Below, one piece after another: positions 32,601 to 64,000 of a DNA stretch of 64,000 nucleotides. This DNA comes from Opitutia bacterium (GTDB lineage Bacteria; Verrucomicrobiota; Verrucomicrobiia; Opitutales; Opitutaceae). The stretch covers positions 1 to 64,000 of the forward strand of contig JACPIT010000013.1 of the NCBI GenBank assembly GCA_016187945.1. The letters are read 5' to 3'. The notes beneath the pieces are model-generated. The model was not told the DNA's origin. It saw only the letters and a program-made list of their open reading frames with translations, and made no database searches. Position 1 is the stretch's first letter. Every line of letters begins with the position of its first letter. The position numbers were made by a program, and so were the translations under genes.

Positions 32601-35600
32601 CAACGCGGACAAATCGGGCGAGCCGCTATCGGAAGCGCCGAATGCGCCGACTCCGGCAGCACTCAGCGCGCGCACCCAATAATAACTCGTCGCTGCCGGC
32701 GCGGTGTAGTCGTAGTAGAAAGTCTCGCCCACCCACGCAGCGATGCGCGTGGCTTGCGCGGAGTTGTTGGTCGAGCCGCGCCAGACTTCGTAACCGGTCG
32801 CGCCGAGCACCGGCGACCAAATCACCCGCACGGCTCCGGTGAGCGCGGCGTCGGTGGCGCTGAGCGTCGACACCTCGCCGGGCACGGCGAACACACCCGG
32901 CATTACCGGGGACGCGGTTTCGTGTGCAGTGAACGTTCCGTCCGCGAGTTGGCCGACGGCATTTTCTCCCGCCGAGAGCACACGGCCGTCGGCCAACAAG
33001 TAAAGCGAGTGCGAGAGCAGACTCGCCATCGCCACCGGGTTTCCGGTGACCTGCACTGGCGTCGCGTCGCCGGCCACGCTGAAGATCGCGTCGGTGGAGC
33101 CCGCGCGCCAGAGTGTGCCGTCGTTCTTCACGAACCACGTGCGGCGATATCCTGCGAACACCGCGCGCACGCCCGTCGCGATTTGCACGGCCTGCGTGCG
33201 ATCGGTTTTGTCGCCGGTGCCGAGTTGGCCGTAATCGTTGAGGCCGACGGTCCACAGCGTGCCGTCGAGCTTCAGGAAAGCACTGTGCTCTTGTCCCGCG
33301 ACCACTGCCGCGACGCCCGCGGCGACTGGGACGAAGCTTGCGCGATTGGTGGTCGTGCCATCGCCGAGTTGGCCGAAAAGATTGCGACCGGCGGCAAACA
33401 GATCGCCGTTGATCTTCACGACTAACATGTGCTGCTCGCCCAACGCCATGTCGCGCACGTCCGTCATGAGTTGCTTCGGTTGCGGATTTGAAGCGAAGAC
33501 ATTGGCGCCGCCCATCGCGCCGTTGCCGGCGACCCAAAGCGTGCCGTCAGATTTGAGGAACAAGGTGCGTCGTTCCCAAGTGGCGACCTTGACGACGTCG
33601 GTCATGACCTGCACCGGCTGCGTCGTGGAGTTCGTCGTGCCATCGCCGAGCTGACCGTAGCTGTTGGAGCCCATGGCCCAGAGCGAACCGTCCGATTTGA
33701 GGAAGAAGCTGTGCCACCAGCCCGCGTAGATCGCGCGGACATCCGTAGCGACCTGCACGGGATTCTCCCGATTCGTCGTGGTGCCGTCGCCGAGCTGGCC
33801 GGCAGTGTTGTTGCCTGCGGCCCACAGTGTGCCGTCGCCGCGAAGGAAGAGGCTGTGGTAAGCGCCAGTCGCAACTTGCACGACTGCGGCCGGACCGGAA
33901 ATCGCGAGCGTCGCCGGGGCCGAGGCAGTGCTGCCTGCGGCGGTGGTCACGGTGACCGAATACTCGCCGGTGTCGGCACCGAGAACATAGGGAAGCGTAA
34001 ACGTGTCGGCGGTGGCGCCGGCGATCGGCGTCGTGCCCTTGAACCATTGATAGGAGAACGGTGGGGTGCCGGTGGCGGACACGGTGAACGTCACGTCGCT
34101 GCCGGCGGTGACGGTCTGCGAAGCGGGCGGCGTAACGATCACGGGCGGCGTGCCGTTGGAGCTGTAGCCGGTATCGGACGCGCTGAAACCAGTGGCGCCG
34201 GCGGGGTTCGCGGCCTTGACCCAGTAGTAGTAGGTCTGGCCCTGAACCGCCGTGGCGTCGAAATAGTAGGGCAACAAGACGCGCTGGGCGAGTTGCGTGG
34301 CGGTGGCCGAATTATCGACGGTATTGCGCCAAACCTCGAACCGGCGCCACGCCAACGGTGCGGTCCACGTGAGGCGAACGCCGTCAGAATACGTGCCATC
34401 GGAGGCGACGGGATCCGTCGGCGCGGAAGTGCTGGAGAGCGTGCCGGACGTGACGAGCGCAAGGTTGGCAACGGAATCACGGTGGCCGACCCCGAGCTGT
34501 CCCCAGTTGTTGCGCCCCGCGGACCAGAGCGAGCCGTCGGCCCGTGCCTGAAGAGCTTGGCCGGAACCAACCGCGATCGCGTAGACCGAGGAAGGCACGC
34601 TGATCTGCACGGGCACGCTGGAACTCGCTGTCGTCCCGTTGCCAAAGGTGCCGGCGTTGGAGCCCATCGCCCACAAAGTGCCGTCGGTTTTGGTGAACAG
34701 GCTATTGCCGTATCCCGCACAGATCAGGCTCACGGACGTCGCGACTTGGATCGGCGTGAGGCGATCGACGGATGTGCCGTCGCCCAAGGCAAAGAATGCG
34801 TTGTATCCGGTCGCCCAGAGCGTGCCGTCCGTCTTGATGAACAAGGAATGACCGCCGCCAGCGGAAATCGCGGTGACATCCGTCGTGACTTGCTGCCACG
34901 TGGTCGCATTCTGCGTGTTGCCCGAGCCGAGGGCTCCGTTGCCGCCGAAGCCGGCGGCCCAGAGGGTGCCGCCCGACTTGATCAGGAGGCTGTGCTGCGC
35001 GCCCGCGGAAACGGCGATCGCGTTGTCGGCGACTTGAACGGGCGACGAGCGATTCGTCGTCGTGCCATCGCCGAGCTGGCCGCTGTCATTGCGACCGGTC
35101 GCCCAGACGGTGCCGTCTTTTTTGATGAAGAGCGTGTGCTCCCCGCCGGCGTCGACCGCCGCGACGTTGGACGCTATCAAGATCGGTTCCGTGCGATCGA
35201 TCGTCGTGCCGTCGCCGAGTTGGCCGGAGTTGTTGCTGCCGCGGCCCCACAATTTGCCGTCGCGGGTGATATAGACGGTGAAGTAGTCGCCAGCGGACAT
35301 CTGCACGACGTCCTCGGCGAGCAACACGGGCACGGTCCAGACCCGGTCCACTCCCGCGCCCGGCGGGAGCGCGCCGTCGACCGCGCGGCCCATGCCGAAC
35401 AATCGACCGTCCGTCCGCAGGAACAAGCTATGCGAGTAGCCCGCGGCGACGAAGAGCACGCCGTTCTGCGGCACCACGGCCACCGTCGCGGGATCGGAGG
35501 TGACGCTGCCCGCGATGTTGGTCAGCGCGACGCGGTAAACGCCGGCGTGGGCAGGCTGGATATTCGAGAGCGTGTAGATTGCGGAATCACTCGAGGTCAA

Positions 35601-38600
35601 ACCGACATTGTTGCGAGACCACGCGAACGTCGGCGGCGTATTCGTGGTGTAGTCGACCGACAAAGACGGTGAAGTGCCGGCGATGAACGCGCCGCCGGCC
35701 GGTTGGGTGTCGATCACCGGCGCCGTGGCGATTTCCACGGCGGTGACGGAACTCGTCGCACTGCCCGCCGAGTTGGTGACGCGAACCCAGTAATTGCCGT
35801 TGTTCGCCGCTCGGAACGCCGGAATGGTCAACGTTGCCGCAGTCGCCCCGGAAATCGCGGAGCCGTTGAAGAACCATTGGTAGGTGACCGCGACAGGACT
35901 TTCCACCTGCACGGACAACTCGATTGCACCACCGCTGAGAACGGTGCGTGAAACTGGCATCGGTTCAATTACGGGCGGAGCGACGTAAACGTTGAGTGTC
36001 GCTTCTGCCGAAATCGCCTCCGTGGAACCGTTGCTCAAAACGCAGCGGAAACGGGTTCCGTCTTGTGGGAGAGAGGCCTTGGCCAACGTGAGCGTCGCCG
36101 CATTGACGCCCGAGAAATTGGTTCCCGGAACAACCGCAGTCCACTCCGAGAATCCAGCCGCGGAATATTGCCACTGGAAGGAGACCCCGGGACTCGAGGT
36201 AGCCACCGAAAACGAGGTGCCGGTGCCAGCAGCGACGTTGCGATTCACCGGTTGGGTCGTGATGGAGATATTCCCGCCTAGATCCGTGCTGCGCCAGATT
36301 CCATCGTCGGCGGCGACAAGTATCGTGTGGTCGCTGATGGCGAAGAAGCGCGATGAGCCGAACGGCAAGGGACGGCGGTGCCAGGAAATTCCGTCGGTGG
36401 AGTCGTAAAGCGCGTTTCCACCCAGAATCCAGAAACGTTCTCCATCGAACTCGAAGGTGGCTTCCACCGCGTCGAAGCCCGCCGGCTGGCGCTCGGTCCA
36501 GTTGAGACCATCGACCGAGGTCAGAATGCGCTCATAACCAACACCCACGAAGACGCCCCGCCCAAAGTGCATCCGGTTCACAAGGGCATCGGATTGTGTC
36601 GAAGCGGACCAATTCACCAAATTGGTGGACGTCCAAAGTTTCCAATCGGAGGCCACCACATATCGACCATTCCCGAAGGCGAAGGCGGTAAGATAACCAT
36701 CGAAGCCGATCGAACGATTGGTCCAGGAAAGGCCGTCGGTGGAAGTAGCGAAGTTCCCTTTCGTGCCCAACGCCACGAGCATGCCATTCGCGAACTCGAA
36801 TCGCGTGATCGTCCCCGAGAATCCCGCGATATCCGCGACCTGCCAATTCGAGCCATCGCTCGAATGCCAATATCGCCCGCCGAAATCCGCATCCGTGCAG
36901 AAAAACTTCCCCAAGGCGTAAAGCAGCCGACCGCCGACTTGGTCGCCGATTCCGGTTTGCGACTGTGTCCAAACAATGCCGTCGTCCGAGAAATAGTCGT
37001 TCCGCCATGATCCGGATGTGACGAATCGTCCGCCGCCCTGAGTCATACTCACCACCGAGTAACCGATCGCGGGCGCTCCGAACCGAGGTTCCCAGGTGAG
37101 AGCGTCTGTGGATGAGAACACAATGCCCCCTACCACCGCCCAAAAACGCCCATTGAATGCGTGGACCAAACTCATCTGCGTTTGCGCCGGCCCTGGACGC
37201 CACGTCCAACTCAGTCCGTCCGAGGACGTATAGTAGGAGAATGAACCATCCGTGATGCAGTAGATGCCGTTCACCCAAGCGATCGAAGGCGAACTGAAGA
37301 AAGTGGGTGGCTGCCTCTGCGTCCACGTCACTCCGTCGGACGACGTCGCCATCAGGCCTCCATCATGGCCAACTGCAAAGAACAACGAGCCGGCGCGCGT
37401 CACTCCCCCCAGCCAGCGATACGCATCGGACCCGCTGATCGTCAGCGATCGCCGCGTCCAATTAACGCCGTCCGGAGACGTCATGATGGCGGCCTCACCG
37501 CTGGCATCGCCACCCACACCCACAAAAAGCCCCTGATCGAAGCAGACTGCCTCTAGAGACACGTTGCTCCCGCCTGATCCCAAAGACGAGACCGACCACG
37601 ACTGACCATCGCTCGATGACAACACACTTCCTGTGCGCCCGGGCCCGACGAGAACGAATCGGCCCGCACCAAACACTCCACCGCTAGTTTGGGCCCCGCC
37701 CGAATCGAAACGTTGGGCCCAATCCACGCCATTCGCCGAACTGTAGATGGTGCTGCTCGAGGAACTGTTTGTGGCACCCACATACATTCCGTTCCCAAAG
37801 GCCAGAGCCGTAGCTGCGGGCTGCCCCGGGAACCGCTGCCAGCTGAGACCGTCGGAGGAGGTCAGAGTGCCAGTGGACGTGAGAGCGCGAAGAAACCCAC
37901 TGCCAAAATTCTCCAAACGCACCACCTGCTCGGCTTTCAGCCAAGGCGTCACCGTCACCGTTTCGCTGTCAACCGAACCGGAGCCATTGCTGACTCGCAC
38001 CCAATACTTTTGGGCGACGGTCGCATTGGACGGGGTCAGGTAGCCGCCACCCGTAGCGCTCGAGATCGGTCGTGAAGTGTCGCCGCGGTTGCCGCGATAC
38101 CACTGGTAAGTCAGCGGCGGCGTGCCGGACGCGATCACCCCGAGATTTGCCGTGGCACCCTCAACCACGTCGGCGCTCTGCGGCTGGGTAGTTATCTGGG
38201 GTGCCGCGCCGATCGTCACCGTGACGGTGGAGCTATTGACGAAACCGTCCGCATTGGAGATTCGCACCCAAAAGCGTGTCGTCTGCGTCAAAGCGCCCGT
38301 CGTAAACGTCGCTGAGATTGCACCGATGATTGGGTGAGAGGTGTCGCCGGCTTCGCCGAGATACCACTGAAAGGACAGGTTTGCTCCGGTCGCCGAAACC
38401 ATGAGCGTCGCCGTCTGGCCGCTCGCCACCGAACGGTTGCTTGGACTTGCGTCGATCATCGGCGCGCTAAGCGGCATCGGGGCGCGCAGCCAACGTTCGA
38501 CATTGGTAGATGCCCACCACGTCCCGCCGGCATGGAGAAAATTACTCACGACGCGGTAGCTGCCGCCGGCGTTCACCAGGGCACCGGGTGCTACCTGCCA

Positions 38601-41600
38601 AGTCCGACCGTCTAACGAGGTCAACAAGTCCCCCCCATGCGCCGCGAGGAATTGTCCGCCGGCAAACGCCAGAGCCGTGATCCCCGACGGATAGGTTCCG
38701 AACTGCCCCCACTCCGCTCCGTCCGCGGATCGCCACAACGTGCCGTCTCCGGCGTAAGCGACAAACACCCCGGCACCGAACACCACCTTGCGGAAATGTT
38801 GCGAGGTGGGGCGCGTGGTCAATTCGGACCACACCGCTCCATCGCTCGAAGTCGCGACGGTGCCCCACGGACCGACCCCAACGTAAAGGCCGTTTCCATA
38901 GGCGATCGACGCTACGACACTCCCATTGGAAATAGTGCCGCTCCAATTGATGCCGTCGGAGGATCGATAGATCGCGCCACCGTTCCACATCAGCCATTGG
39001 CCGCCCAGATAGGCTACTCCTGAGAATCCGGCAGTCTGCCCTTGACCTATAAAATTCCGCGCCGTCCACGTCACGCCGTCCGTCGAGGTGTAGTGCGTGT
39101 ATCCACTGTAGGTGTAACTGTTGACGGCCACAAAGAGACCATTGCCGTAGGCCACGGCGCCGAGGGAGTAAGCGGACGGATTCACGGCATATTTCCAGTT
39201 CACGCCATCGTCGGAGTAGCGGGCGGCATTGCCGCTAACCGCCACAAAGCGACCCGCACCATAAGCCACCTCGGATGGAATGCTAAAGCCGAGACGCTGA
39301 CTCCAGTTGGACAGGTCCGCCGACGTCCACAAACGGAACGACGCGCCGCTACCCGATGAGCCGGCCAGCGCGAAATAGGTGCCGTCGGCATAGCCAATCG
39401 CGTTCACCATGTTAGGCATCACCCCGGTTGGCACGGCCGACCACGTCAGTCCGTCGGTCGAAGTGCGGAACGACGAGTCGATCAGATGGTCACCCACTTG
39501 AAATGCCGCGCCGCCTCCCTCGCTGAAGATCGGTGCCGTCCACGTGATTCCATCCGCCGATGCCACCGCATATTTCGGCCCGCCGTAGTATTCCGAAACA
39601 CCCATGGCCACGAACCGACCGCTCACAAACACTACTTGGTTGAGCGAACCGAACGCGTAGGTCGAACTCGAGAACGAGACAGAACAACGCGCCCAGTTGA
39701 CGCCATCAGTCGATTGGTAAACGCGCTTGGTTCCGTCCGCCGCCGTGTATCCCGCCGCAACGAAGCGACCCGTGCCGAACGTCACTGACCGGAGCACGAT
39801 ATTTGCGTTTTGCTCCATCACGTAGCGCCACGCCCAATCGTTGCCGGATGTCAGCGTTAAGACTTTTCCGGAAACGCCGACAAACACCGTGACGCCGTTT
39901 CCGCGCGCGACGCTCGACAGCACCTCGCTCGACCCCGCATCGGCCAATCGGATTTTTGTCCAGGTCCGTCCGTCCGCAGAGGAAAACAGCTGTCCGCCCA
40001 CGCCGCCCGCAACGAACCGCGTGCCGTCGTGCAACACACAGCGAAGGGAAGCGCTGGATTCGATTGTTCCCTTACGCCAATCGACTCCGTTCGATGAATA
40101 GGCTGCCGCACCATCGCCGACCATGACGTGCACGCCACCGCCGCTGGCCGTCGCGTAAAGATACGCGGTGTCGAAATACGGCTCAATCAAACCCCACCGT
40201 CCCACCGCCATCGTGTCGCTCAGCGCGATGTCTGCTCCGCTCACCACGCGCACCCAATAGCGTGCCAGAGAATCATCCTGCGCGACCGTCAATGTGTTTG
40301 AGGTTCCGCCCGACACCGGCAGAGACGTGTCACCACTCGCGCCGGCGAACCACTGATACGTAAACGGTCCGGTCCCGCTTGCCGTCACGCTCAACGTCAC
40401 CAGCGAACCGTCGGTGTTCGCCGTGGCGGGACTGATCGTGACCAAGAAGGCCTGAACGGAGCACGTCGCACTGCGCGAAAATACCTGACCAAACTCATTT
40501 GTGACGCGCACCCGATAACTCCCTTGGTCACTAGACTGCGCCCCCGAAATCGTGAGCGTGGCGGTGCTGCTTCCGCTCACCCGTCCGCCATCGGCCAAAG
40601 GCTGATCATCTTTGAACCACTGATATCCCGTTGCGGCGCTCGCCTGCACGGAAAGCGAAATAGATGCACCCTTCGCCACCGCCAGATCTTGCGGCTGCTG
40701 CAGGATTATCGGCGGATCGATCGCGACTGCCGCAGCGAAAAACGCTTCGCCGGCCGCAACCAATCGCACATTGCCCAAGGTGGCCGGCACACCGGATTGC
40801 TCGCTGCTCGACCGCGCCCGAGCCAACACTTCGCCCGTAGATTTAAGCAGGATATAATGCGATGCGCGGGCAGACATAGCCACGACGTTATCAACACCCA
40901 ATGGCGTGATGACCCCGCCATTGCCCAAAAGTTGGCCGGTGCCCGATAACGCCCAGATGCTGAAGCCATCTCCCGCCGCGAACACCGACGAACTCCAGCT
41001 CGTCACGTTCAGCTCCCCCGACGAACTCGATCCCCAAGCCAAGAAGCCGAGATCGGTCAGCACAAAGGTGTGACGCTCGCCGGCGGTAATCGCATACGTC
41101 GTGCGCAGGTTATTTGGCACCAGACACTGCCCGGATTCGTTCGCGCCCCACGCGACCACAGTGCCGTCATTCTTCAACGCCACGGAGTGATTACCACCAG
41201 CGGCCACTTGCACGACATTGGTCAATCCCGCCGGAACCGTTGCTTGCCCCGCCGAATTGCGGCCCCAAGCCACGACGGAACCGTCGGACTTGAGGGCAAG
41301 CATATGATCGCCGCCGGCCGCCAGCTGCACCACGCCCGAAAGCCCCGCCGGAACATTGCGTTGGCCAAAATCGTTCCGACCCCAAGCGACCACCGTGCCA
41401 TCCGCTCGCAGCGCCGCGGCATGACCATTACCCGCGACCAAATCGCTCACGTTCTCGAGCCCAGCGGGCAAATCGGTCTGGCCCGACTCGTTTGCGCCCC
41501 AGGTCACGACGCGGTTCGGACGGGTCACCCGCACATGGAAAATGCGGGTGGTGCTGCCCGCCGAATTCGAAACGGTCACCGCATAATACCCTGAATCGGC

Positions 41601-44504
41601 CGGTGAAGCCGATGCGATTTGCAGCACCGAGCCCGTGAAACTGAGGAACGAATCATTATGGCGCCAAGAATAGGTGCCGCTCACCGTGGCCGTCGCGTCC
41701 ACCACCAGTGCATCTCCACTACTGACCTGTATCGTCCGGAGCGGCTGCAAAATTTGAGGCCGCGCGATGACGGCGCCGATCGCCGCCGCACTCGTCGCCG
41801 TCCCGGCCGAACTCGTGGCAACTGCATCGTAGTTCCCCGCATCGTCAGGCGTCACACCCGTGATGCGCAGGGTCAACGAGGTAACCCCGCTGATTCTGCC
41901 GCCATCTACCAGCGGCACGCCGTTTTTCCGCCATTGTATGGCAGGCGTCGGCCGACCCTTCACCGAGACGGAAAACGTCATCGTGGCACCTTCGTTCACC
42001 GTCGCGTTAGCGGGCTGGGTTGAAAATGAGGGCGCGACAGGCGGAACCAGTGCCACGCTGCTGTAATTGCCCGCTCCCAATCCGTAAGCCATGGTGACGT
42101 CGGACGGAACGTCTCGTTGGCCATAGAAATTGTGCCCGAACGCCACAATCGTTCCGTCAGACTTGAGCGCCAAACTGTGGGACTGCCCCGCCGCAATCGC
42201 GACAACTCCGTTCAATCCTGCCGGGACCGTCGCTTGCCCATTGAAATCGAAACCCCACGCGACGACCGTCCCGTCCGTCTTCAGGGCCAAATTATGATCC
42301 CCGCCTGCTGCGATCGCCTTCACGTTGGCCAGACCGAAGGGCGGGGTTTGTGACGCGGCCGAGCTACCTCCCCACACCACGACCGTTCGATCCGCCAGCA
42401 ATGCGATGCTGTGTTCTTCGCCGGCAGCGATTGCCACGACATTTTGAAGCCCCACCGGAACGTCGGTCTGTCCGCGACTGTTGGAGCCCCACGCCACGAC
42501 CGTGCCGCCGGCCTTCAGGGCCAAGCAATGCTGCCCACCAACGGCCACGTCCACCACGTTGATCAGCCCAGCGGGCACTTCGGTCTGATGATAATAAGTT
42601 ATTCCCCACACCACGACGGTCCCGTCACTTCGCAGTGCGGCGCTGGCGTTGCTGCGGGCCGCAATTCTGACCACGTTTGTCAGCCCGGGCGGCACGACGG
42701 CCTCCGCATGAGTAAGATCGCCCCAGCTCACGACCGTCCCGTCCGCTTTCAAACCGAGCGAGTGCACGACGCCCGCGGCAACTTGCAAGAAACCAGCCGC
42801 ACCCGCCGGCGGCATCAGGTCTTGATACATGCTGTAACCCCAAGTCGCAGCGGTCGCGTTAGCGGGTGCCACCGTCACATAGAAAACCGACCGAGTTGAG
42901 CCACCGTCATTGGTAACCACCGCTTCATAGTAGCCACCGTCAGTCGCCGTCGCATTGAGCGTGAAACTTGGTGCCGTGGCGCCGGCGATATTTTGGCCAT
43001 TGCGACGCCACTGGTAGTTGAGTGTGCCCGATCCGGTTGCGGCGACGTTAAACGTGGCGCTCTGTCCGACCGCGAGCGCACGCGAAAGCGGCTTGGTCGT
43101 GATTTGCGGGGGCGCCGGCAAAACGGTCAAGGTCGCCTCCACGCTGGTGACCGAACCCGCTACGTTGGAAACAACGCACCGGAAGCGATCTCCGCTCATC
43201 GAGAGAGCCTGCGCCACCACCGACAGCGTCGCAGTGTCGGCTCCCGAAAAATTTCCACCATTGGAAATGTCGCTCCATTCTCCGCTGCCACTCGCTGCCC
43301 GCTGCCAGCGGAATGTCGGAGCCGGTGAGCCGTTTGCTGACACGCTGAACTGCGTCGTCTGGCCAACCGTGATCGATTGGTTTGACGGCTGCGCCGTTAA
43401 GGTCGGCGCGCTGTCCGTCTGTCCGGGCGTAAACGAAAGATTCAGCACCACAATGCCCCACTGTGAATCCCAACCGCCGACCACGAAACGGTAGGTTGTT
43501 CCCGCCGTCACATTGAACGTAATCGCGCTGCGGCGCTCCGAGTCACTGGCGTCATCATTCGCCGCGAGTTGAGTAAGCGAGGCGACGTAATCTCCCGTGT
43601 AGGCGGCGAGGACCGTGTCGAAGTTCGTTCCGAGAGTGTTGATCGTGAGCGTGCCGTTCGACGGCGCCGTCCACTTCCACCAAATCGAAGCTCCGTCGTT
43701 ACTGTGGCCGTGGTGCGGTTCGCCGGATTCTTTCGTCGCGCCGACGCTCGAGCCGGTGACGGTCGTGCTGCCACTGCTGAGGCTGATCGTCCAAGCACTG
43801 GCGAAATTATCGTTGCTCGGCGCGCTGTAGCCGCCGGGGCGACTGTAGAGGAGTTGTGCGCCGGTGAGGTCGTCGGTTTGCAGCGAGTCGATGTTGCTGA
43901 CGTAGGCGTTCATGATTGCCGTTACCGACTGGCCGTCCTGATCGGGGTGATCGAGGCCCAGCACGTGGCCGAGTTCGTGGATCGCGACGCGGCGGATGTC
44001 TTCGGGCTGCTGAAGATTCCCGCGATAGGAATCCCAGGTCCACTTGCTGTTGAAAAGAATGTCCGACTGCGTGCGCTGGTAGGTGCCGTCGCCGCGCGCG
44101 TTCGTGGCGACCCACGAGAGCGTCACGGCGAGAGTGTTATCGCCGAAGTCCTGCGGCGGGTTGTCGGGATCGGTGCTGTTGCTGTAGATCTTCGTGTCGA
44201 ACGCGATTTCGTTCACGCCGTCGCCGTCGCTGGCAAGGCCGGACGCGGCGATCGAGGGGGCGAACTGCACCTGCGTGACCTGCGCGTTCCAGGTGGTCAT
44301 CGCCGCTTGCACGCTGCCGGCATAGCTGGTGCCGTCCTGCAGGTTTGCGGTCTGCGACATGCGGATCACGAACGGGATCGAACCGGCGTCCCAGGTGACT
44401 CGCGCGCCGCCTTGGCCGTAAATGAGATCGTAGCCGAACGCGCTGAGTGCGCCGCACGCGGCGAGCGCGAGTGCGGCGAGGAGGCGGAGAAAATTATTTC
44501 GCAC
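29682..44504 (-). CDS. Giant secreted matrixin-headed protein with mixed RCC1, BNR, FN3 and Ig domains
   Basis: A 4940-residue protein in one open frame. N-terminal signal sequence MRNNFLRLLAALALAACGAL includes LAAC (Cys17), which fits a lipobox, although cleavage after AFG (24) is also possible. Matrixin protease domain (about 25-222) with complete zinc motif HELGHVLGLDH (176-186) and Met-turn AIMNAY (Met198), then a pre-peptidase-like beta domain (about 228-360) and two Ig domains. After this come two RCC1 propellers with Ig pairs, two long BNR-like arrays ('SxDGxxWT' blades), then three canonical RCC1 propellers (GQLGDGTTTNR type), each followed by an FN3 domain (YYYWVKAANPAG) and an Ig domain. 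MBG-like repeats and the shared C-terminal module ending FLRLVVAR close the protein. Its start overlaps the 3' end of the 196-residue gene by 11 bases, so the two are translationally coupled. GC content drops in the middle third. The head is closely related to the GlyGly-CTERM protease at 62837-64000. Confidence 0.9.
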   Translation of the reverse strand: MRNNFLRLLAALALAACGALSAFGYDLIYGQGGARVTWDAGSIPFVIRMSQTANLQDGTSYAGSVQAAMTTWNAQVTQVQFAPSIAASGLASDGDGVNEIAFDTKIYSNSTDPDNPPQDFGDNTLAVTLSWVATNARGDGTYQRTQSDILFNSKWTWDSYRGNLQQPEDIRRVAIHELGHVLGLDHPDQDGQSVTAIMNAYVSNIDSLQTDDLTGAQLLYSRPGGYSAPSNDNFASAWTISLSSGSTTVTGSSVGATKESGEPHHGHSNDGASIWWKWTAPSNGTLTINTLGTNFDTVLAAYTGDYVASLTQLAANDDASDSERRSAITFNVTAGTTYRFVVGGWDSQWGIVVLNLSFTPGQTDSAPTLTAQPSNQSITVGQTTQFSVSANGSPAPTFRWQRAASGSGEWSDISNGGNFSGADTATLSVVAQALSMSGDRFRCVVSNVAGSVTSVEATLTVLPAPPQITTKPLSRALAVGQSATFNVAATGSGTLNYQWRRNGQNIAGATAPSFTLNATATDGGYYEAVVTNDGGSTRSVFYVTVAPANATAATWGYSMYQDLMPPAGAAGFLQVAAGVVHSLGLKADGTVVSWGDLTHAEAVVPPGLTNVVRIAARSNASAALRSDGTVVVWGITYYHQTEVPAGLINVVDVAVGGQHCLALKAGGTVVAWGSNSRGQTDVPVGLQNVVAIAAGEEHSIALLADRTVVVWGGSSAASQTPPFGLANVKAIAAGGDHNLALKTDGTVVAWGFDFNGQATVPAGLNGVVAIAAGQSHSLALKSDGTIVAFGHNFYGQRDVPSDVTMAYGLGAGNYSSVALVPPVAPSFSTQPANATVNEGATMTFSVSVKGRPTPAIQWRKNGVPLVDGGRISGVTSLTLRITGVTPDDAGNYDAVATSSAGTATSAAAIGAVIARPQILQPLRTIQVSSGDALVVDATATVSGTYSWRHNDSFLSFTGSVLQIASASPADSGYYAVTVSNSAGSTTRIFHVRVTRPNRVVTWGANESGQTDLPAGLENVSDLVAGNGHAAALRADGTVVAWGRNDFGQRNVPAGLSGVVQLAAGGDHMLALKSDGSVVAWGRNSAGQATVPAGLTNVVQVAAGGNHSVALKNDGTVVAWGANESGQCLVPNNLRTTYAITAGERHTFVLTDLGFLAWGSSSSGELNVTSWSSSVFAAGDGFSIWALSGTGQLLGNGGVITPLGVDNVVAMSARASHYILLKSTGEVLARARSSSEQSGVPATLGNVRLVAAGEAFFAAAVAIDPPIILQQPQDLAVAKGASISLSVQASAATGYQWFKDDQPLADGGRVSGSSTATLTISGAQSSDQGSYRVRVTNEFGQVFSRSATCSVQAFLVTISPATANTDGSLVTLSVTASGTGPFTYQWFAGASGDTSLPVSGGTSNTLTVAQDDSLARYWVRVVSGADIALSDTMAVGRWGLIEPYFDTAYLYATASGGGVHVMVGDGAAAYSSNGVDWRKGTIESSASLRCVLHDGTRFVAGGVGGQLFSSADGRTWTKIRLADAGSSEVLSSVARGNGVTVFVGVSGKVLTLTSGNDWAWRYVMEQNANIVLRSVTFGTGRFVAAGYTAADGTKRVYQSTDGVNWARCSVSFSSSTYAFGSLNQVVFVSGRFVAMGVSEYYGGPKYAVASADGITWTAPIFSEGGGAAFQVGDHLIDSSFRTSTDGLTWSAVPTGVMPNMVNAIGYADGTYFALAGSSGSGASFRLWTSADLSNWSQRLGFSIPSEVAYGAGRFVAVSGNAARYSDDGVNWKYAVNPSAYSLGAVAYGNGLFVAVNSYTYSGYTHYTSTDGVTWTARNFIGQGQTAGFSGVAYLGGQWLMWNGGAIYRSSDGINWSGTISNGSVVASIAYGNGLYVGVGPWGTVATSSDGAVWSELTTRPTSQHFRKVVFGAGVFVAYAGDGTLWRSADGAEWGQFGTYPSGITALAFAGGQFLAAHGGDLLTSLDGRTWQVAPGALVNAGGSYRVVSNFLHAGGTWWASTNVERWLRAPMPLSAPMIDASPSNRSVASGQTATLMVSATGANLSFQWYLGEAGDTSHPIIGAISATFTTGALTQTTRFWVRISNADGFVNSSTVTVTIGAAPQITTQPQSADVVEGATANLGVIASGTPPLTYQWYRGNRGDTSRPISSATGGGYLTPSNATVAQKYWVRVSNGSGSVDSETVTVTPWLKAEQVVRLENFGSGFLRALTSTGTLTSSDGLSWQRFPGQPAATALAFGNGMYVGATNSSSSSTIYSSANGVDWAQRFDSGGAQTSGGVFGAGRFVLVGPGRTGSVLSSSDGQSWSVSSLGSGGSNVSLEAVCFDQGLFVGVGGDASGEAAIMTSPDGVNWTRRSLTISGSDAYRWLGGVTRAGSLFFAVGHDGGLMATSSDGVTWTQRQPPTFFSSPSIAWVNGIYCITDGSFSYYTSSDGLSWTWRPGPAQTQMSLVHAFNGRFWAVVGGIVFSSTDALTWEPRFGAPAIGYSVVSMTQGGGRFVTSGSWRNDYFSDDGIVWTQSQTGIGDQVGGRLLYALGKFFCTDADFGGRYWHSSDGSNWQVADIAGFSGTITRFEFANGMLVALGTKGNFATSTDGLSWTNRSIGFDGYLTAFAFGNGRYVVASDWKLWTSTNLVNWSASTQSDALVNRMHFGRGVFVGVGYERILTSVDGLNWTERQPAGFDAVEATFEFDGERFWILGGNALYDSTDGISWHRRPLPFGSSRFFAISDHTILVAADDGIWRSTDLGGNISITTQPVNRNVAAGTGTSFSVATSSPGVSFQWQYSAAGFSEWTAVVPGTNFSGVNAATLTLAKASLPQDGTRFRCVLSNGSTEAISAEATLNVYVAPPVIEPMPVSRTVLSGGAIELSVQVESPVAVTYQWFFNGSAISGATAATLTIPAFRAANNGNYWVRVTNSAGSATSSVTAVEIATAPVIDTQPAGGAFIAGTSPSLSVDYTTNTPPTFAWSRNNVGLTSSDSAIYTLSNIQPAHAGVYRVALTNIAGSVTSDPATVAVVPQNGVLFVAAGYSHSLFLRTDGRLFGMGRAVDGALPPGAGVDRVWTVPVLLAEDVVQMSAGDYFTVYITRDGKLWGRGSNNSGQLGDGTTIDRTEPILIASNVAAVDAGGEHTLFIKKDGTVWATGRNDSGQLGDGTTTNRSSPVQVADNAIAVSAGAQHSLLIKSGGTLWAAGFGGNGALGSGNTQNATTWQQVTTDVTAISAGGGHSLFIKTDGTLWATGYNAFFALGDGTSVDRLTPIQVATSVSLICAGYGNSLFTKTDGTLWAMGSNAGTFGNGTTASSSVPVQISVPSSVYAIAVGSGQALQARADGSLWSAGRNNWGQLGVGHRDSVANLALVTSGTLSSTSAPTDPVASDGTYSDGVRLTWTAPLAWRRFEVWRNTVDNSATATQLAQRVLLPYYFDATAVQGQTYYYWVKAANPAGATGFSASDTGYSSNGTPPVIVTPPASQTVTAGSDVTFTVSATGTPPFSYQWFKGTTPIAGATADTFTLPYVLGADTGEYSVTVTTAAGSTASAPATLAISGPAAVVQVATGAYHSLFLRGDGTLWAAGNNTAGQLGDGTTTNRENPVQVATDVRAIYAGWWHSFFLKSDGSLWAMGSNSYGQLGDGTTNSTTQPVQVMTDVVKVATWERRTLFLKSDGTLWVAGNGAMGGANVFASNPQPKQLMTDVRDMALGEQHMLVVKINGDLFAAGRNLFGQLGDGTTTNRASFVPVAAGVAAVVAGQEHSAFLKLDGTLWTVGLNDYGQLGTGDKTDRTQAVQIATGVRAVFAGYRRTWFVKNDGTLWRAGSTDAIFSVAGDATPVQVTGNPVAMASLLSHSLYLLADGRVLSAGENAVGQLADGTFTAHETASPVMPGVFAVPGEVSTLSATDAALTGAVRVIWSPVLGATGYEVWRGSTNNSAQATRIAAWVGETFYYDYTAPAATSYYWVRALSAAGVGAFGASDSGSPDLSALPQITAQPQDVKSYVGLSATLSVTATGAGPLSYQWMKDGATLDGATQAQLTLTNLQVANSGVYRVVVSNASGSVTSQAATLSVTVPHGVLHVSAGREHSLFLRTDGSLWGAGSSAFGQIPAGQNVVEVTSPTLIANDVVAMAAGWWHTLFVTADGRLYATGRNDSGQLGDGTTTNRSTPVLIASDVAAVGAGAENSYFIRKDGSLWGMGGGSWNQLGNGSLIRQLSPIKLLDRAVAVAVGERHAVVLKDDGTVWTAGYFSYGALGTGNSNSDRWAQIATGATAVAAGDNHTLFLKSDGSLWAAGDNRVGQLGNGTTSGTGGAAGVLTPFQVTTGVSMIAAGGNTSLVTKTDGTVWAMGANAGAYGNGTTTDELNPMQIFSGNAYGLSTSGLHTLIAVSDGSLRVTGLNYRGQLGNGTQTASTSFLSVATGAIVAPTAPAGLAAVAEAGGTGIRVTWNASLGWRRFEIWRGTTTSLADATMIVQRVSLPTYLDTTAQAGTPYYYWVKAANPAGVSAPSAMATSAGAPPAISQSPSNQTVDVGASVTFTVVADGTAPLTYQWRKGGNAIDGATAAGYTIASAQIADAGSYDVVVSNAFGSATSSAAALTVTPLSQTITFAALPDVAFSPTPITLTASASSSLPVSFTIVSGSATLSGNSLTLTAAGSLTVRAAQSGDATYAAAANVDRTFTVTKAPATVTLGALSVTYDGTAKSATATTNPDSLSVTLTYDGGPTAPTDAGNYAVAATIDDTRYQGTASDSLTIAKAAQTISFAALADQAFSATPLALSATSSSNLSVSFAVVSGPATLNGSALTLTGAGTVTIRAAQSGNANYLAAPNVDRSFVVAMGFDAWLREHFTSDELLDATISGPNADSDGDGFVNLTEYALGADPRADSAANAPQMSATATDWTFTYTRPADRSDIVYTVEYSTNLTTWSSVGVTHTLVSSSNGAETWRATYPVSSAPACFLRLVVAR
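31310..35480 (-). repeat. Three RCC1 propeller + FN3 + Ig modules
   Basis: Propellers at about 35480-34420, 33890-32880 and 32340-31310 carry canonical RCC1 blades (GRNDSGQLGDGTTTNRSSPV). Each is followed by an FN3 domain (WRRFEVWRNT, YYYWVKAANPAG) and an Ig domain. This blade type differs from the 'ADGTVVAWG' type found at the other end of the same protein, so the protein was assembled from at least two RCC1 lineages. Confidence 0.75.
36270..40200 (-). repeat. Two BNR/Ycf48-like propeller arrays
   Basis: About 40200-38460 and 37940-36270 encode repeated blades with the pattern 'SSDGxxWxxxxxG....VAYGNGLYVGVG', for example YTSTDGVTWTARNF and TSVDGLNWTERQ. These resemble BNR/sialidase-type or Ycf48-like propeller blades (Asp-box-like SxDGxxW). 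No catalytic sialidase residues are apparent, so they are read as structural propellers. Two Ig domains separate the arrays. The DNA here is the least GC-rich of the giant genes. Confidence 0.65.
40730..42845 (-). repeat. Two RCC1-type propellers with Ig pairs
   Basis: Within the 4940-residue protein, two seven-blade arrays of the same style as the 6797-residue protein (VVQVAAGGNHSVALKNDGTV) lie at about 42845-42040 and 41530-40730, separated by two Ig domains. Boundaries are approximate. Confidence 0.7.
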
Positions 44505-45084
44505 GGCGCGCCTCCCGGATCTTCGTGACGAAGGACTGCGGGGTGAGCGCGTCGGTCTTGGATTTGAATTTCTTCTGGAGCGTCGCGGCGTTGCCCTCGG
44601 TCATCGGGGCGGCAACTTCGGCCACGTCGGACATCGGCACGTCGTTGCTGCGCGCGATGTATTCGTGCCCGGCGTCGTCGTGTCGGACGCGGTAGCGGCC
44701 GTGCATCACCGCGTAGAGCGGGAAGAAATTCCGGCCGTTGCCCTGGACGAAGAGGATGTCCTCGTCGCCTTCCTTGAATCGCGGCGCGCCTTCGACGCGC
44801 AGCTCGGTCGCGCCGACGCGTCCGCCCAGGCAGGTGAGGACGGGCTCGGCGGGCGGCTCGCCGGCGATGGTCTCGAGCACTTCGAGCGTGACTTTGGTGT
44901 AGATCAGCGGCGGTTTGCCGGGGCGCTCTTTCGCCTCGTAGACGAGGCGTTTGACGCGCGCGCGCACGATGTAGTCGGCGCCATTCACCAATTCGGCGAA
45001 CGTCGGCGGTTTGACGGACGTGGCCTGCAGGGGCGCGGCAAGCGCCGACACTGCGGCCAGGACGAGAATGAAGCGGGCAAACAT
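44494..45084 (-). CDS. Small secreted protein coupled to the matrixin giant, unknown function
   Basis: A 196-residue protein with a signal peptide (MFARFILVLAAVSALAAPLQA, cleavage before TSVKPP). The mature part is one beta-rich domain: FAELVNGADYIVRARV, VTLEVLETIAGEPPAEPVLT, LGGRVGATELRVEGAPRF, EGDEDILFVQGNG and MHGRYRV. The start at 45084 was chosen because it gives the signal peptide; the upstream open frame does not look coding. Its 3' end overlaps the start of the 4940-residue gene by 11 bases. From memory, similar proteins often sit directly before matrixin-type protease genes in Verrucomicrobiota, which would fit an inhibitor, chaperone or cofactor of the protease. No family name is recognised and the role is inference. 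Confidence 0.8.
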   Translation of the reverse strand: MFARFILVLAAVSALAAPLQATSVKPPTFAELVNGADYIVRARVKRLVYEAKERPGKPPLIYTKVTLEVLETIAGEPPAEPVLTCLGGRVGATELRVEGAPRFKEGDEDILFVQGNGRNFFPLYAVMHGRYRVRHDDAGHEYIARSNDVPMSDVAEVAAPMTEGNAATLQKKFKSKTDALTPQSFVTKIREARRAK

Positions 45085-61975: not shown

Positions 61976-62590
61976 CTACTTTTGCAGCGCGTGTTTGCGC
62001 CACCAGGCCCCCACGCCCCATGCGACGAGCGCGTAGCCGACGGCGGCGAGGTGCGCGCTTGTCGCGACTTTCACTCCGGGATCGTCGAACTCGATGAAGC
62101 CGCCGCCGTGACCGCCTTTCCAGATTTCGTAGCCAAGCTCGACGGCGTAGATGACGACGATCGCCGGCCAAAACCAGTCGCGCCAATCGCCGCGCCAGCT
62201 CCGCGCCGCGAGCAGGAGCAGCAGCCCGAGATTGACGGCGCTGAGTCCGGCGTAGCGCGCCATCGTCGGATCGAGCCAGTAGAGCACGCCGCAGATCGCC
62301 GGTGGCATGAGCAGGAGACCGACCCAGCTATCGCGCGGAAATTCGCGGCCGAGCGTGAAGCCGACGATCAGCAGCAACCCGCCGTCGGCGACGAAGTGCG
62401 GCCAGCCGAAGTGCACGATCTGGCCGGTCCAGATGCGCCACCACTCGCCGTGCGCCAGCGCCGTGCGATCGTAGACGAGCGCCTCGCGCCATTCCGGGCG
62501 GAGCTGCACGACCAGCGCCGCCGCGGCGACCGCGCAGAAGAACCACGGAGCGCGGAAACGGAAGCGAGCTTGCGGCGGGGGAGAGTCCAC
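61976..62590 (-). CDS. rrtA: Rhombosortase (rhomboid-family GlyGly-CTERM serine protease)
   Basis: A membrane protein of about 204 residues with several hydrophobic segments. Rhombosortase-like features are YDRTALAHGEWWRIWTGQIV, HFGWPHFVAD, the catalytic serine motif YAGLSAVN (Ser117) and the histidine helix KVATSAHLAAVGYA (His180). Rhombosortases cleave substrates near a C-terminal Gly-rich/hydrophobic/Arg-rich tail, and the adjacent upstream gene encodes exactly such a protein. The frame is open further upstream, but the first possible GTG (62791) lies inside the terminator of the preceding gene, so I chose the GTG at 62588-62590, which gives the usual family length. The start is uncertain. 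The 214 bases between this gene and the kinase start show no recognisable feature. Confidence 0.85.
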   Translation of the reverse strand: MDSPPPQARFRFRAPWFFCAVAAAALVVQLRPEWREALVYDRTALAHGEWWRIWTGQIVHFGWPHFVADGGLLLIVGFTLGREFPRDSWVGLLLMPPAICGVLYWLDPTMARYAGLSAVNLGLLLLLAARSWRGDWRDWFWPAIVVIYAVELGYEIWKGGHGGGFIEFDDPGVKVATSAHLAAVGYALVAWGVGAWWRKHALQK

Positions 62591-62773
62591 GGCGCCGTTG
62601 ATGGCGGTGAGAGACGGCGCGCGCAAGCGTCGGAGCGCGGGAAGGCGCGGGGGCGCGCGAAACGTGCGCGGCAGCCGGCGGCAGTCGGCCGGGATCAGCG
62701 GGCGGAGGTTTTTCAGCCGACTCGCGTCGGCTGCTACGGGGAAGCGCGGCGAGCGCGGGCGATTTTTGCGTGG

Positions 62774-62804
62774 AAAACAAAAAGGCCTCACGCGCGGTGA
62801 GGCC
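62774..62804 (-). terminator. Intrinsic terminator after the GlyGly-CTERM protease
   Basis: On the minus strand a perfect 8-bp stem GGCCTCAC/GTGAGGCC with a five-base loop (62784-62804) is followed directly by TTTTTGTTTT. It lies 33 bases past the stop codon at 62837. This is the clearest intrinsic terminator in the window. Confidence 0.85.
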
Positions 62805-62836
62805 TGGAATTCGTCCGCGAAGTTTCGCGTCGCGCG

Positions 62837-64000
62837 TCAGGCGCGGCGGCGTTTTTGCCAGGCGCGAAGGACGCCGGCGAGCGCGAGCGCCGCGAGGAAC
62901 CAATCGCTCGGGGCGCCGCCGCCGCCACCGCCCGAACTCGGCGGCGTGACGGGCGCGTTCACGGTGAGCGTGGCGCCGTTGCTCGTGACTGAGCCGAGGC
63001 TGTTGACCACCGTGACGGTGTAAGTGGCGGCGTCGCCCGTCTGCACGTTGCTCAGGCTGAGCGTCGCGCTTTGCTGACCAAGAATTGGGCTGCCGTTCTT
63101 GTTCCACTGGTAAGTGGGATTCGGCAACCCGGTGGCGACGACGCTGAAGACGACGTTCCCACCGACGGTGACGGACTGGCTTTGCGGGTGCGTCGTAATG
63201 ACGGGCGCAGCGTTCACCTGGCTGGCGGAAAACGTGGCGTTGAGCTGCACGCTGCCCCACTCGCCCTGCCAGCCGTCGACGGCGAGGTAGTAGGTCGTGC
63301 CGGAGGCCACGTTGAAGACGACGCGGCTGGTGCGCGGGCGGGTCTGCGAGGAATCTTCGGACGGGCTCACGACATCGTCGTTCGAGGCGAGTTGCGTGAG
63401 GGAGCCGACGGCGGAGCCGGTGTAGGCGCCGAGCAGCGTGTCGAAGTTCGTGCCGGCGGTCGTGACTTCGAGGCTGCCGTTGGCGGTGGCGGTCCATTTC
63501 CACCAGACCGAGGCGCCGCCGGCTTCGCTGGAGACGTGGTTGGGTTCGCCGGACTCCTTGTGAGCGCCCACGCTGGAACCGGTGACCGTGACGGTGTTGC
63601 TCGCGGGAATGGTGATCGCGGTGGCGTTGCCGAAGAGGTCGTTGGGCACGCCGATGGAAACGCTGGGATCGCCGTAGATGTAAGTCGCGCCGTCGATGTC
63701 GTCGCGCTGGAGCGCGTCGATGCTGCTGATGTGGCTGTTCATGATCGCGCTGACGGACTGGCCCCACTCGTCGGGGTGATCGAGGCCGAGGACGTGGCCG
63801 AGCTCGTGCAGGGCGACACGACGGATATCGAGCGCGCTGCGTGTGGAGCCGCGGTAGGAATCCCAGGTTTTTGCGGAGTTGAAGAGGATGTCCGACTCGG
63901 TGCGGCGATAGGTGCCGTCCGTCTGCAACGCGCCGCGATTGGAGAGCGTGACGGCGATGACGTTGGTGCCGTAGGCCTCACCGTAAACGGTCGACGAAAA
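62837..64000 (-). CDS. Secreted matrixin-family metalloprotease with GlyGly-CTERM tail, 5' end outside window
   Basis: The frame is open to the window edge, giving 387 residues of the C-terminal part; residues upstream of DGTYRRTESDILF also match the matrixin head of the 4940-residue protein, so the gene continues to the right. It has the zinc motif HELGHVLGLDHPDEW, Met-turn AIMNSH, a pre-peptidase-like beta domain (SGEPNHVSSEAGGASVWWKW, FDTLLGAYTGSAVGSLTQLA), one Ig domain (ITTHPQSQSVTVGG, YQWNKNG) and a Gly6 stretch, hydrophobic helix (DWFLAALALAGVL) and basic end (QKRRRA). That tail is a GlyGly-CTERM sorting signal. The adjacent rhombosortase is its likely processing enzyme, leading to surface attachment or release. 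It ends with a strong terminator. Confidence 0.93.
   Translation of the reverse strand, partial: FSSTVYGEAYGTNVIAVTLSNRGALQTDGTYRRTESDILFNSAKTWDSYRGSTRSALDIRRVALHELGHVLGLDHPDEWGQSVSAIMNSHISSIDALQRDDIDGATYIYGDPSVSIGVPNDLFGNATAITIPASNTVTVTGSSVGAHKESGEPNHVSSEAGGASVWWKWTATANGSLEVTTAGTNFDTLLGAYTGSAVGSLTQLASNDDVVSPSEDSSQTRPRTSRVVFNVASGTTYYLAVDGWQGEWGSVQLNATFSASQVNAAPVITTHPQSQSVTVGGNVVFSVVATGLPNPTYQWNKNGSPILGQQSATLSLSNVQTGDAATYTVTVVNSLGSVTSNGATLTVNAPVTPPSSGGGGGGAPSDWFLAALALAGVLRAWQKRRRA

Follow-up and report, generated by a model that had tools for sequence, protein, structure and literature searches.

Gly-rich APSxWF tails of Opitutaceae, their likely processing by one rhombosortase clade, and a cassette with a matrixin and a putative TIMP-like inhibitor

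The window analyzed here is a stretch of 64,000 nucleotides (nt) from an Opitutia bacterium of the family Opitutaceae (positions 1-64000 of contig C1, JACPIT010000013.1; genome of 5.47 Mb on 16 contigs). At its end lie the gene of a rhombosortase and most of the gene of a matrixin, a metalloprotease with a Gly-rich C-terminal tail of the APSxWF type. Both belong to a three-gene cassette of small secreted protein, matrixin and rhombosortase, two genes of which are inside the window (Table 1). The cassette probably combines a putative inhibitor, the tailed matrixin and a rhombosortase of one Opitutaceae clade (clade B), which would also serve about twelve further tailed proteins of the genome. 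Genome sequences show the cassette and how it is conserved, as well as the family of tails and the co-distribution of the tail with the enzyme clade.

Co-distribution was scored across 150 genomes of the family. A strict tail pattern was present in 38/42 genomes with a clade-B enzyme (104 sites) vs. 12/108 other genomes (13 sites), and at least twice in 25 of the 42; the backward control of this pattern was present in 6/42 (9 sites) and 16/108 (17 sites), respectively. A Fisher test of clade B vs. tail pattern gave P = 1.6e-20 (the test ignores relatedness, as do the genome counts). For rhombosortase genomes without clade B, the pattern was found in 6/41 and the backward control in 8/41, i.e., at control level. 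Beyond the window's own locus, 29 pattern loci were inspected, and a frame ending in the tail was found at 20/24 loci from clade-B genomes (loose rule; 17 under a stricter one) and at 0/5 from other genomes. Since the tail is tied to clade B and not to rhombosortases in general, clade B is likely the processing enzyme of the APSxWF tail, with cleavage itself predicted.

To place the window enzyme, a tree was used that held 109 of 113 rhombosortase places from these genomes, 86 of which had a match at E 1e-15 and 82 of which had one over the TIGR03902 cut-off. The tree comprised 108 places over the cut-off and G059 (83.6 bits); G135:C170 (74 bits) and G007:C3, G082:C111 and G105:C26 (≤64.1 bits) were left out. 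Neighbors were labelled by upstream-tail pattern, and family scans covered two C-type neighbors and one A-type neighbor. Clade B (support 100 in the Shimodaira-Hasegawa-like approximate likelihood ratio test, SH-aLRT) held 42 rows including the window enzyme, with an adjacent APSxWF tail in 22, another Gly tail in 3 and none in 17; pairs of enzyme and tailed neighbor such as the one described in the initial annotation recur at related loci. Set A (support 81, 32 rows) had a lipoprotein-type tail adjacent in 27 rows, and set C (support 100, 24 rows) a GGGA[ILM] tail in 15, the two scanned examples being VIT-VWA proteins. The motifs also differed among the aligned rows: the serine motif was GLSA in 18/22 of clade B and GLSG in 10/10 of set A and 9/9 of set C, and the residues ahead of the histidine were [VI][AG]Tx in 22/22 of clade B, VPLAH in 9/9 of set C and mixed in set A (VPLAH in 4/10). 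Three APSxWF-labelled rows outside clade B were second copies of tandem enzymes; at L042, L062 and L063, tandem rhombosortases stand behind one tailed matrixin, with the second copies outside the clade. Beside set C rhombosortases, L115, L122, L133, L135 and L140 encode proteins of ~810-850 amino acids (aa) that end near FVWG, with no recognizable tail.

The window enzyme scored as a rhombosortase with TIGR03902 (103.4 bits in the genome scan; protein scan in Table 1), its Pfam Rhomboid score was 34.1 against a cut-off of 22.6, and it is predicted to be active. The serine lies in GLSAVN (GLSAV at 62248-62234) and the histidine in VATSAHLA (SAHLAAVG at 62059-62036); G84, L85, S86 and H149 were invariant among 22 aligned clade-B rhombosortases. 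The rhombosortase-like protease with GLSAV serine and SAHLAAVG histidine proposed in the initial annotation is thus borne out by the family score and both located motifs. A PDB sequence search with the rhombosortase gave one chance match and nothing useful. The first start codon of the frame (GTG at 62791) falls inside a terminator-like hairpin; GTG at 62590 is the likelier true start. A scan for terminators returned 4 sites in the region vs. 1.7 in shuffles, which makes the hairpin evidence weak. Directly after the tailed matrixin gene comes that of the enzyme, as first described, though this hairpin intervenes.

A second rhombosortase of the genome, at contig C9 303818 (L006, from 7767), was also over the cut-off (112.9 bits), and the other rhomboid-family matches, on contigs C6 (53.9 bits) and C12 (34.2 bits), were below it. 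The gene of the C9 enzyme closely follows that of a rhombotarget lipoprotein (TIGR04179, 296.5 bits, cut-off 150), so the enzyme has its own probable target. For this reason the 13 tailed proteins of the genome, described next, most likely share the window enzyme, many to one. It is improbable that the tails are processed by the C9 rhombosortase or by both enzymes, with the adjacency in the window being historical. Both enzymes are over the cut-off in one genome, and another rhomboid protease, GlpG, is reported in the available text of PMC6219818 to cut VesB, a rhombosortase substrate; however, non-clade-B rhombosortase genomes carry the tail pattern at control level, and the C9 enzyme adjoins the lipoprotein and groups in the tree among enzymes with lipoprotein-type neighbors. 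As a server of window-type tails the C9 enzyme was rejected on the control-level result.

Tails were collected with profile A1, built from 24 of 30 tails found beside related enzymes (excluded were two near-copies and four tails of a different type; one row, L053, is not adjacent to a clade-B enzyme). At E 10 the profile gave 17 genome matches. The best 13 (12 at E ≤0.0114 and the 13th at 0.32) all stand at the close of an open frame and run from glycines through a hydrophobic stretch to basic residues, and the last four do not. One of the 17 places is within C1:1-64000, in agreement with the initial statement that no other protein in the window has this tail. The twelve other tailed proteins are spread over contigs C5, C8, C9, C10, C12, C14 and C15, and in 8/12 of these, as scanned, the passengers were GH5, GH16 with Ig, a reprolysin-like protease, YHYH, NHL with Ig (two), FG-GAP with Ig and a dioxygenase fold. 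Independently of the profile, a DNA pattern of the tail indicated more than chance: it had 4 exact genome sites, or 12 with one mismatch, and its backward control had none. A further frame, L005:14545-17001 (contig C1 ~72544-75000, reverse strand), ends in Gly8-SPTIIG followed by hydrophobic and basic stretches and was not listed by profile A1.

The curated tail models behaved differently. TIGR03501 (GlyGly-CTERM) gave no genome match at E 0.001, and its controls likewise gave none; at E 10 it gave two genome places, both under the cut-off and neither of them the window tail, one of which (C9:654873, E 5.2) belongs to the 13 tails. Tested on the 24 profile tails at E 10, it matched 10 (best E 0.0059), and MYXO-CTERM matched 21 (best E 0.0019). 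The nearest NCBIfam tail models to the window tail were MprA_tail (16.2 bits, cut-off 19.7) and MYXO-CTERM (11.9 bits, cut-off 20), both of which fell short. The silence of TIGR03501 was considered as a sign that no further tails exist, and this was rejected, given the 13 tailed proteins of profile A1. A count based on TIGR03501 would mistakenly have favored one enzyme with one substrate.

A dedicated pair of that kind was what the initial annotation had proposed. Adjacency, the single such tail in the window and the adjacent dedicated pairs already described (PMC3237569, available in part) are in line with it; yet the genome holds 13 same-profile tails and two rhombosortases over the cut-off, and the recurrence of the strict pattern within most clade-B genomes also speaks against it, so that a pair of this kind is very hard to uphold. 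The genome search thus divided the matter that the initial annotation had regarded as decisive: many tails were found, and service by other rhombosortases is not indicated.

The full matrixin has 487 aa (L005:4838-6301) and runs ~300 nt past the window end, its start being at ~64300 on the contig. Its Peptidase_M10 match (PF00413) scored 44.6 bits against a cut-off of 24, and the zinc-site motif HExxHxxGxxH is present as HELGHVLGLDH at 63808-63776. The order along the protein is a signal-peptide-like start, M10, a stretch weakly like PPC (under cut-off), Ig and the Gly6-APSDWF tail (this motif at 62932-62897), the C-terminus reading GGGGGGAPSDWF...QKRRRA. Motif, hydrophobic stretch and basic C-terminal end are those of the GlyGly-CTERM architecture; the profile A1 score of this tail (Table 1) is not independent, since the profile was built with this tail among its rows. 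No cysteine occurs in the matrixin, and the first domain motif (W37) comes about a dozen residues past the signal peptide (cleavage placed by eye); as the cysteine is missing and hardly any space is left for a propeptide, the matrixin lacks one of the classic cysteine-switch kind, judging from the sequence. Karilysin, also a matrixin, has a short propeptide, and one of that kind may be present here. A propeptide check matched 8/21 cassettes, 4 of these 8 having cysteines in the examined part.

In the window genome the small gene and the matrixin gene overlap, stop with start, by 11 nt. By tblastn with the window neighbors, the small gene was found directly before a matrixin at 21/42 clade-B loci and 0/64 other loci. 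Named genomes were scanned with the clade-B alignment (seeded from two peptide patterns, so that more distant relatives can be missed), which gave 55 enzyme relatives, all titled Opitutaceae, its genera, or Verrucomicrobia/Opitutae; the closest were from Opitutus and Candidatus Didemnitutus. The small gene was found at 30/55 of these named loci, the same 30 having the matrixin catalytic part, always with the small gene first and on the same strand.

A Gly tail was found on the paired matrixin at 20/21 cassette loci next to clade B (18 by motif search, plus L092 and L108 from a separate tail listing) and on 0/11 complete matrixin open reading frames (ORFs) in five genomes searched and found without clade B. 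Left out of the latter set were L309 and L316 (no matrixin shown), L315 (cut), L304 and L314 (clade-B genomes) and the G299 and G386 ORFs; three further complete matrixin ORFs of G299 and G386, which were outside the rhombosortase search, likewise had no Gly tail, and among the excluded loci of clade-B genomes L304 (G004) has one and L314 (G021) has none. Across the phylum the small protein was present in at least 19 of 288 genomes, with up to 11 candidates scored per genome, and a matrixin-like stretch was found in the flank at 28/30 small-protein loci examined, including genomes without clade B (the 28 include L293, where the match to the small protein is too weak for tblastn to report). The matrixins that accompany the small protein differ in their C-termini, which are of several kinds. 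Because such pairs occur without clade B and are then without the tail, the small protein is taken from these sequence comparisons to be a matrixin partner, with Gly tail and rhombosortase as an addition.

Table 1. Positions of the cassette and of other features in the window or, where marked, on the contig beyond it.
Feature	Position	Strand	Basis
Rhombosortase, Opitutaceae clade B	61976..62791	-	TIGR03902 102 bits, cut-off 84 (protein scan); clade of 42 rows, SH-aLRT 100
Terminator-like hairpin and T run, between matrixin and rhombosortase	62783..62805	-	9-pair stem
Matrixin (M10) with Ig domain, C-terminal 387 aa of 487	62837..64000	-	Pfam M10 and Ig over cut-offs
Gly6-APSDWF / hydrophobic / QKRRRA tail, presumed processing signal	62840..62932	-	profile A1 49.6 bits
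Gene 1 of cassette, small secreted protein	contig C1 64293-64913, just beyond window	-	recurs before matrixin at 21/42 clade-B loci (tblastn)
gspD/gspE/gspF-like genes, divergent from cassette, beyond window	contig C1 65226-70499 (L005:7227-12500)	+	best families, below cut-offs
Second small protein, predicted TIMP-like fold, 196 aa, intact	44494..45084	-	profile A3 222.6 bits
4940-aa protein beginning as matrixin, further domains	29682..44504	-	HELGHVLGLDH, codons from 43979 down

The fold of the small protein was predicted with AlphaFold2 for a homologue (model 1; predicted local distance difference test, pLDDT, 85.3; predicted template modelling score, pTM, 0.77) and for a second copy in the window, signal peptide removed (model 2; pLDDT 90.2, pTM 0.85). 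Foldseek against the PDB placed TIMP-2 first for both models (E 4.2e-4 and 9.1e-4, probability 1.00), TIMPs being ranks 1-8 for model 1 and 1-7 for model 2. Aligned to N-TIMP-3 with VIA-align, model 1 gave Z 8.5 (root-mean-square deviation, rmsd, 3.0 over 115 residues; first) and model 2 gave Z 8.4 (rmsd 3.1 over 116 residues), second behind a complement C5 chain (Z 8.5). The N-terminal register agreed as well: in several rows the first aligned residue of model 2, residue 2, pairs with residue 2 of TIMP-1, -2 and -3, and in model 1 TIMP residue 3 is matched by residue 31, the third of the mature protein. At the predicted cut of 24 homologues, Ala before and Thr after were invariant, with a small residue (A, S, G, C) at -3 in 20/24. 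The mature N-terminus was T-[TSM]-[VI]-x-[AP]-P, in which Thr1 and Pro6 were invariant. The small protein is therefore predicted to have a TIMP-like NTR fold, and it is a probable, still putative, TIMP-like inhibitor on the basis of these models.

Several results weigh against the cassette as read here. The small protein had no match to NCBIfam at E 0.001 and none to Pfam over a family cut-off; a Pfam search with 24 small-protein members at E 10 gave one chance match and no TIMP or NTR family, and a PDB sequence profile search gave nothing at E 1 and, at E 10, a single unrelated chain but no TIMP. By Z, complement NTR domains and agrin NtA do about as well as TIMPs, TM-scores to TIMPs reach only about 0.3-0.5, and the NTR fold alone shows no function. 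Animal TIMPs begin with Cys1 and have disulfides; here Thr1 stands in place of Cys1, and any cysteine is found in only 8/24 homologues. Because the sequence-family searches and the Cys1 comparison found no link, we do not count the small protein as a member of the TIMP family. Concerning the enzyme and its partner, four clade-B genomes lack the strict tail pattern, the 17 clade-B rows noted above have no tailed neighbor by the labelling rule (one, L068, has a convergent tailed gene), the matrixin of cassette L069 has a different end, and the terminator-like site argues against a single transcript of matrixin and rhombosortase. The neighboring secretion genes, each of which is the best-scoring family at its place, are below their cut-offs (score/cut-off in bits: GspD 295.1/351.35, GspE 535.3/630.25, GspF 277.6/424).

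The same structural results leave some room, doubtful as we judge it, for the small protein to be a generic NTR/OB barrel that helps the matrixin to fold or to be exported: non-TIMP barrels match the TIMPs in Z, it occurs with matrixins of several C-terminus kinds, and no sequence ties it to TIMP. Against a helper stand the TIMPs at the top of both Foldseek lists, the N-terminal register, the matrixin partner and the position of the gene, since known bacterial inhibitor genes (potempins; PMC7296668, available in part) also precede protease genes.

For the cassette with a putative inhibitor, the following course would be the most likely. The small protein and the matrixin would be made together, by way of the 11-nt overlap, and exported by Sec; the free N-terminus of the small protein would bind the matrixin as TIMPs bind MMPs, and the matrixin would be kept inactive in the periplasm. 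The matrixin tail would hold the protein in the inner membrane until the rhombosortase cuts within the Gly run. If the matrixin behaves like VesB of Vibrio, lipid would then be attached to the C-terminus so formed and the protein passed by type II secretion to the cell surface. The window rhombosortase would process the approximately twelve other tailed proteins too. We infer cutting, lipid attachment, secretion route and inhibition alike. In Vibrio, according to the available text of PMC6219818, VesB is cut by rhombosortase, its Gly is joined to a glycerophosphoethanolamine-containing moiety, and type II secretion follows. The idea that the rhombosortase merely trims the tail and releases the matrixin, with no lipid attachment or surface retention, is a lesser possibility; retention is known from Vibrio, another group, but a surface role would suit passengers that have Ig, NHL and glycan-active domains, and the VesB analogy points the same way. 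We would put forward, only tentatively, that the cassette with its putative inhibitor is a bacterial counterpart of the MMP-TIMP system, in which periplasmic inhibition of the propeptide-less matrixin by the free N-terminus of the small protein is followed by surface anchoring through the rhombosortase, protease and inhibitor are thereby separated, and sorting is the activation step.

The type II neighborhood of the cassette fits the Vibrio route by analogy and is only an indication. Homologues of gspD/E/F were found in the fetched flanks of 6/42 clade-B loci vs. 1/64 others (Fisher P = 0.015, relatedness ignored), the six being the window's own, two congeners and three further loci, and at 4/55 named loci with shorter flanks; missing gsp genes in short flanks mean little.

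A second pair of small protein and matrixin is present in the window. The sole stop inside the profile A3 match of the second small gene is its own terminal TAA, and the start of the 4940-aa protein overlaps the small-gene stop by 11 nt, as in the cassette; matrixin similarity in this protein was found at locus L275. It ends without a Gly tail, in FLRLVVAR, and its 4224-aa neighbor ends in FLRLMVTR. The giant C-termini (29682 and 45276) share GPNADxDxDG..NLxEYALGxDP ... FLRLxVxR, and the L069 matrixin, beside a clade-B rhombosortase, ends in IFVRLKVTL. These ends are possibly another sorting tail.

Parts of this picture are already in print: adjacent pairs, two-rhombosortase genomes, an Opitutus example, bacterial metzincin/TIMP-like pairs and inhibitor-first operons. 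The papers compared here were available in part, and each statement on them refers to the available text. Adjacent enzyme/target pairs were described by Haft and Varghese (2011; PMC3237569), Opitutus terrae included, as was Cupriavidus metallidurans with two rhombosortases, each beside its own target. The system described there resembles the present one in an enzyme over the TIGR03902 cut-off, a tripartite tail and an adjacent target. It differs in that the window tail is under the TIGR03501 cut-off, and in that a genome with many targets here keeps one target beside the enzyme, for which PMC3237569, as available, gives only Cupriavidus, with Comamonas as a near case. The rhombotarget lipoprotein (TIGR04179) and its rhombosortase form an adjacent pair in the same genome (C9), but with another enzyme clade and the tail GYTGxG. 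VesB and RssP of Vibrio cholerae (PMC6219818) are alike in a surface protease with Gly-rich tail, a rhomboid-type enzyme and type II secretion; unlike the matrixin, VesB is a serine protease, no inhibitor gene is mentioned in the available text, and its processing is proven, that of the matrixin being predicted.

Animal TIMPs and MMPs share with the cassette the predicted NTR fold, a matrixin partner and the N-terminal register of the window-type small protein, which differs from TIMPs in having Thr for Cys1, few cysteines and no sequence similarity found. In Tannerella the potempins are lipoproteins, and the KLIKK proteases leave by type IX secretion. These pairs resemble the cassette in that the inhibitor gene lies directly ahead of the protease gene (PMC7296668, available in part). 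The Mtz/Tim pair of Listeria (PMC8235301) is alike in a metzincin gene beside a TIMP-like predicted structure without sequence similarity; it is unlike in that a lipoprotein is involved, the locus is phage-derived, the protease gene comes first, no rhombosortase is mentioned in the available text and the metzincin cuts Tim. For the APSxWF tail, the clade-B assignment and the inhibitor-matrixin-rhombosortase cassette, no mention was found in the open PMC literature on rhombosortases and TIMP-like inhibitors, as far as it was available.

Because the curated tail models miss or under-score APSxWF, surface proteins of Opitutaceae are probably under-annotated. Rhombosortase clades separate by neighbor, so enzyme-tag specificity can be tested in one genome with two enzymes and two tails. 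Matrixins relate to proteases that remodel animal tissue, and TIMP-fold inhibitors restrain such proteases in animals. If the small protein does inhibit its partner, control of the MMP-TIMP type would have a bacterial form beside its protease and sorting enzyme, and the quieting of a propeptide-less surface protease during export would become directly testable.

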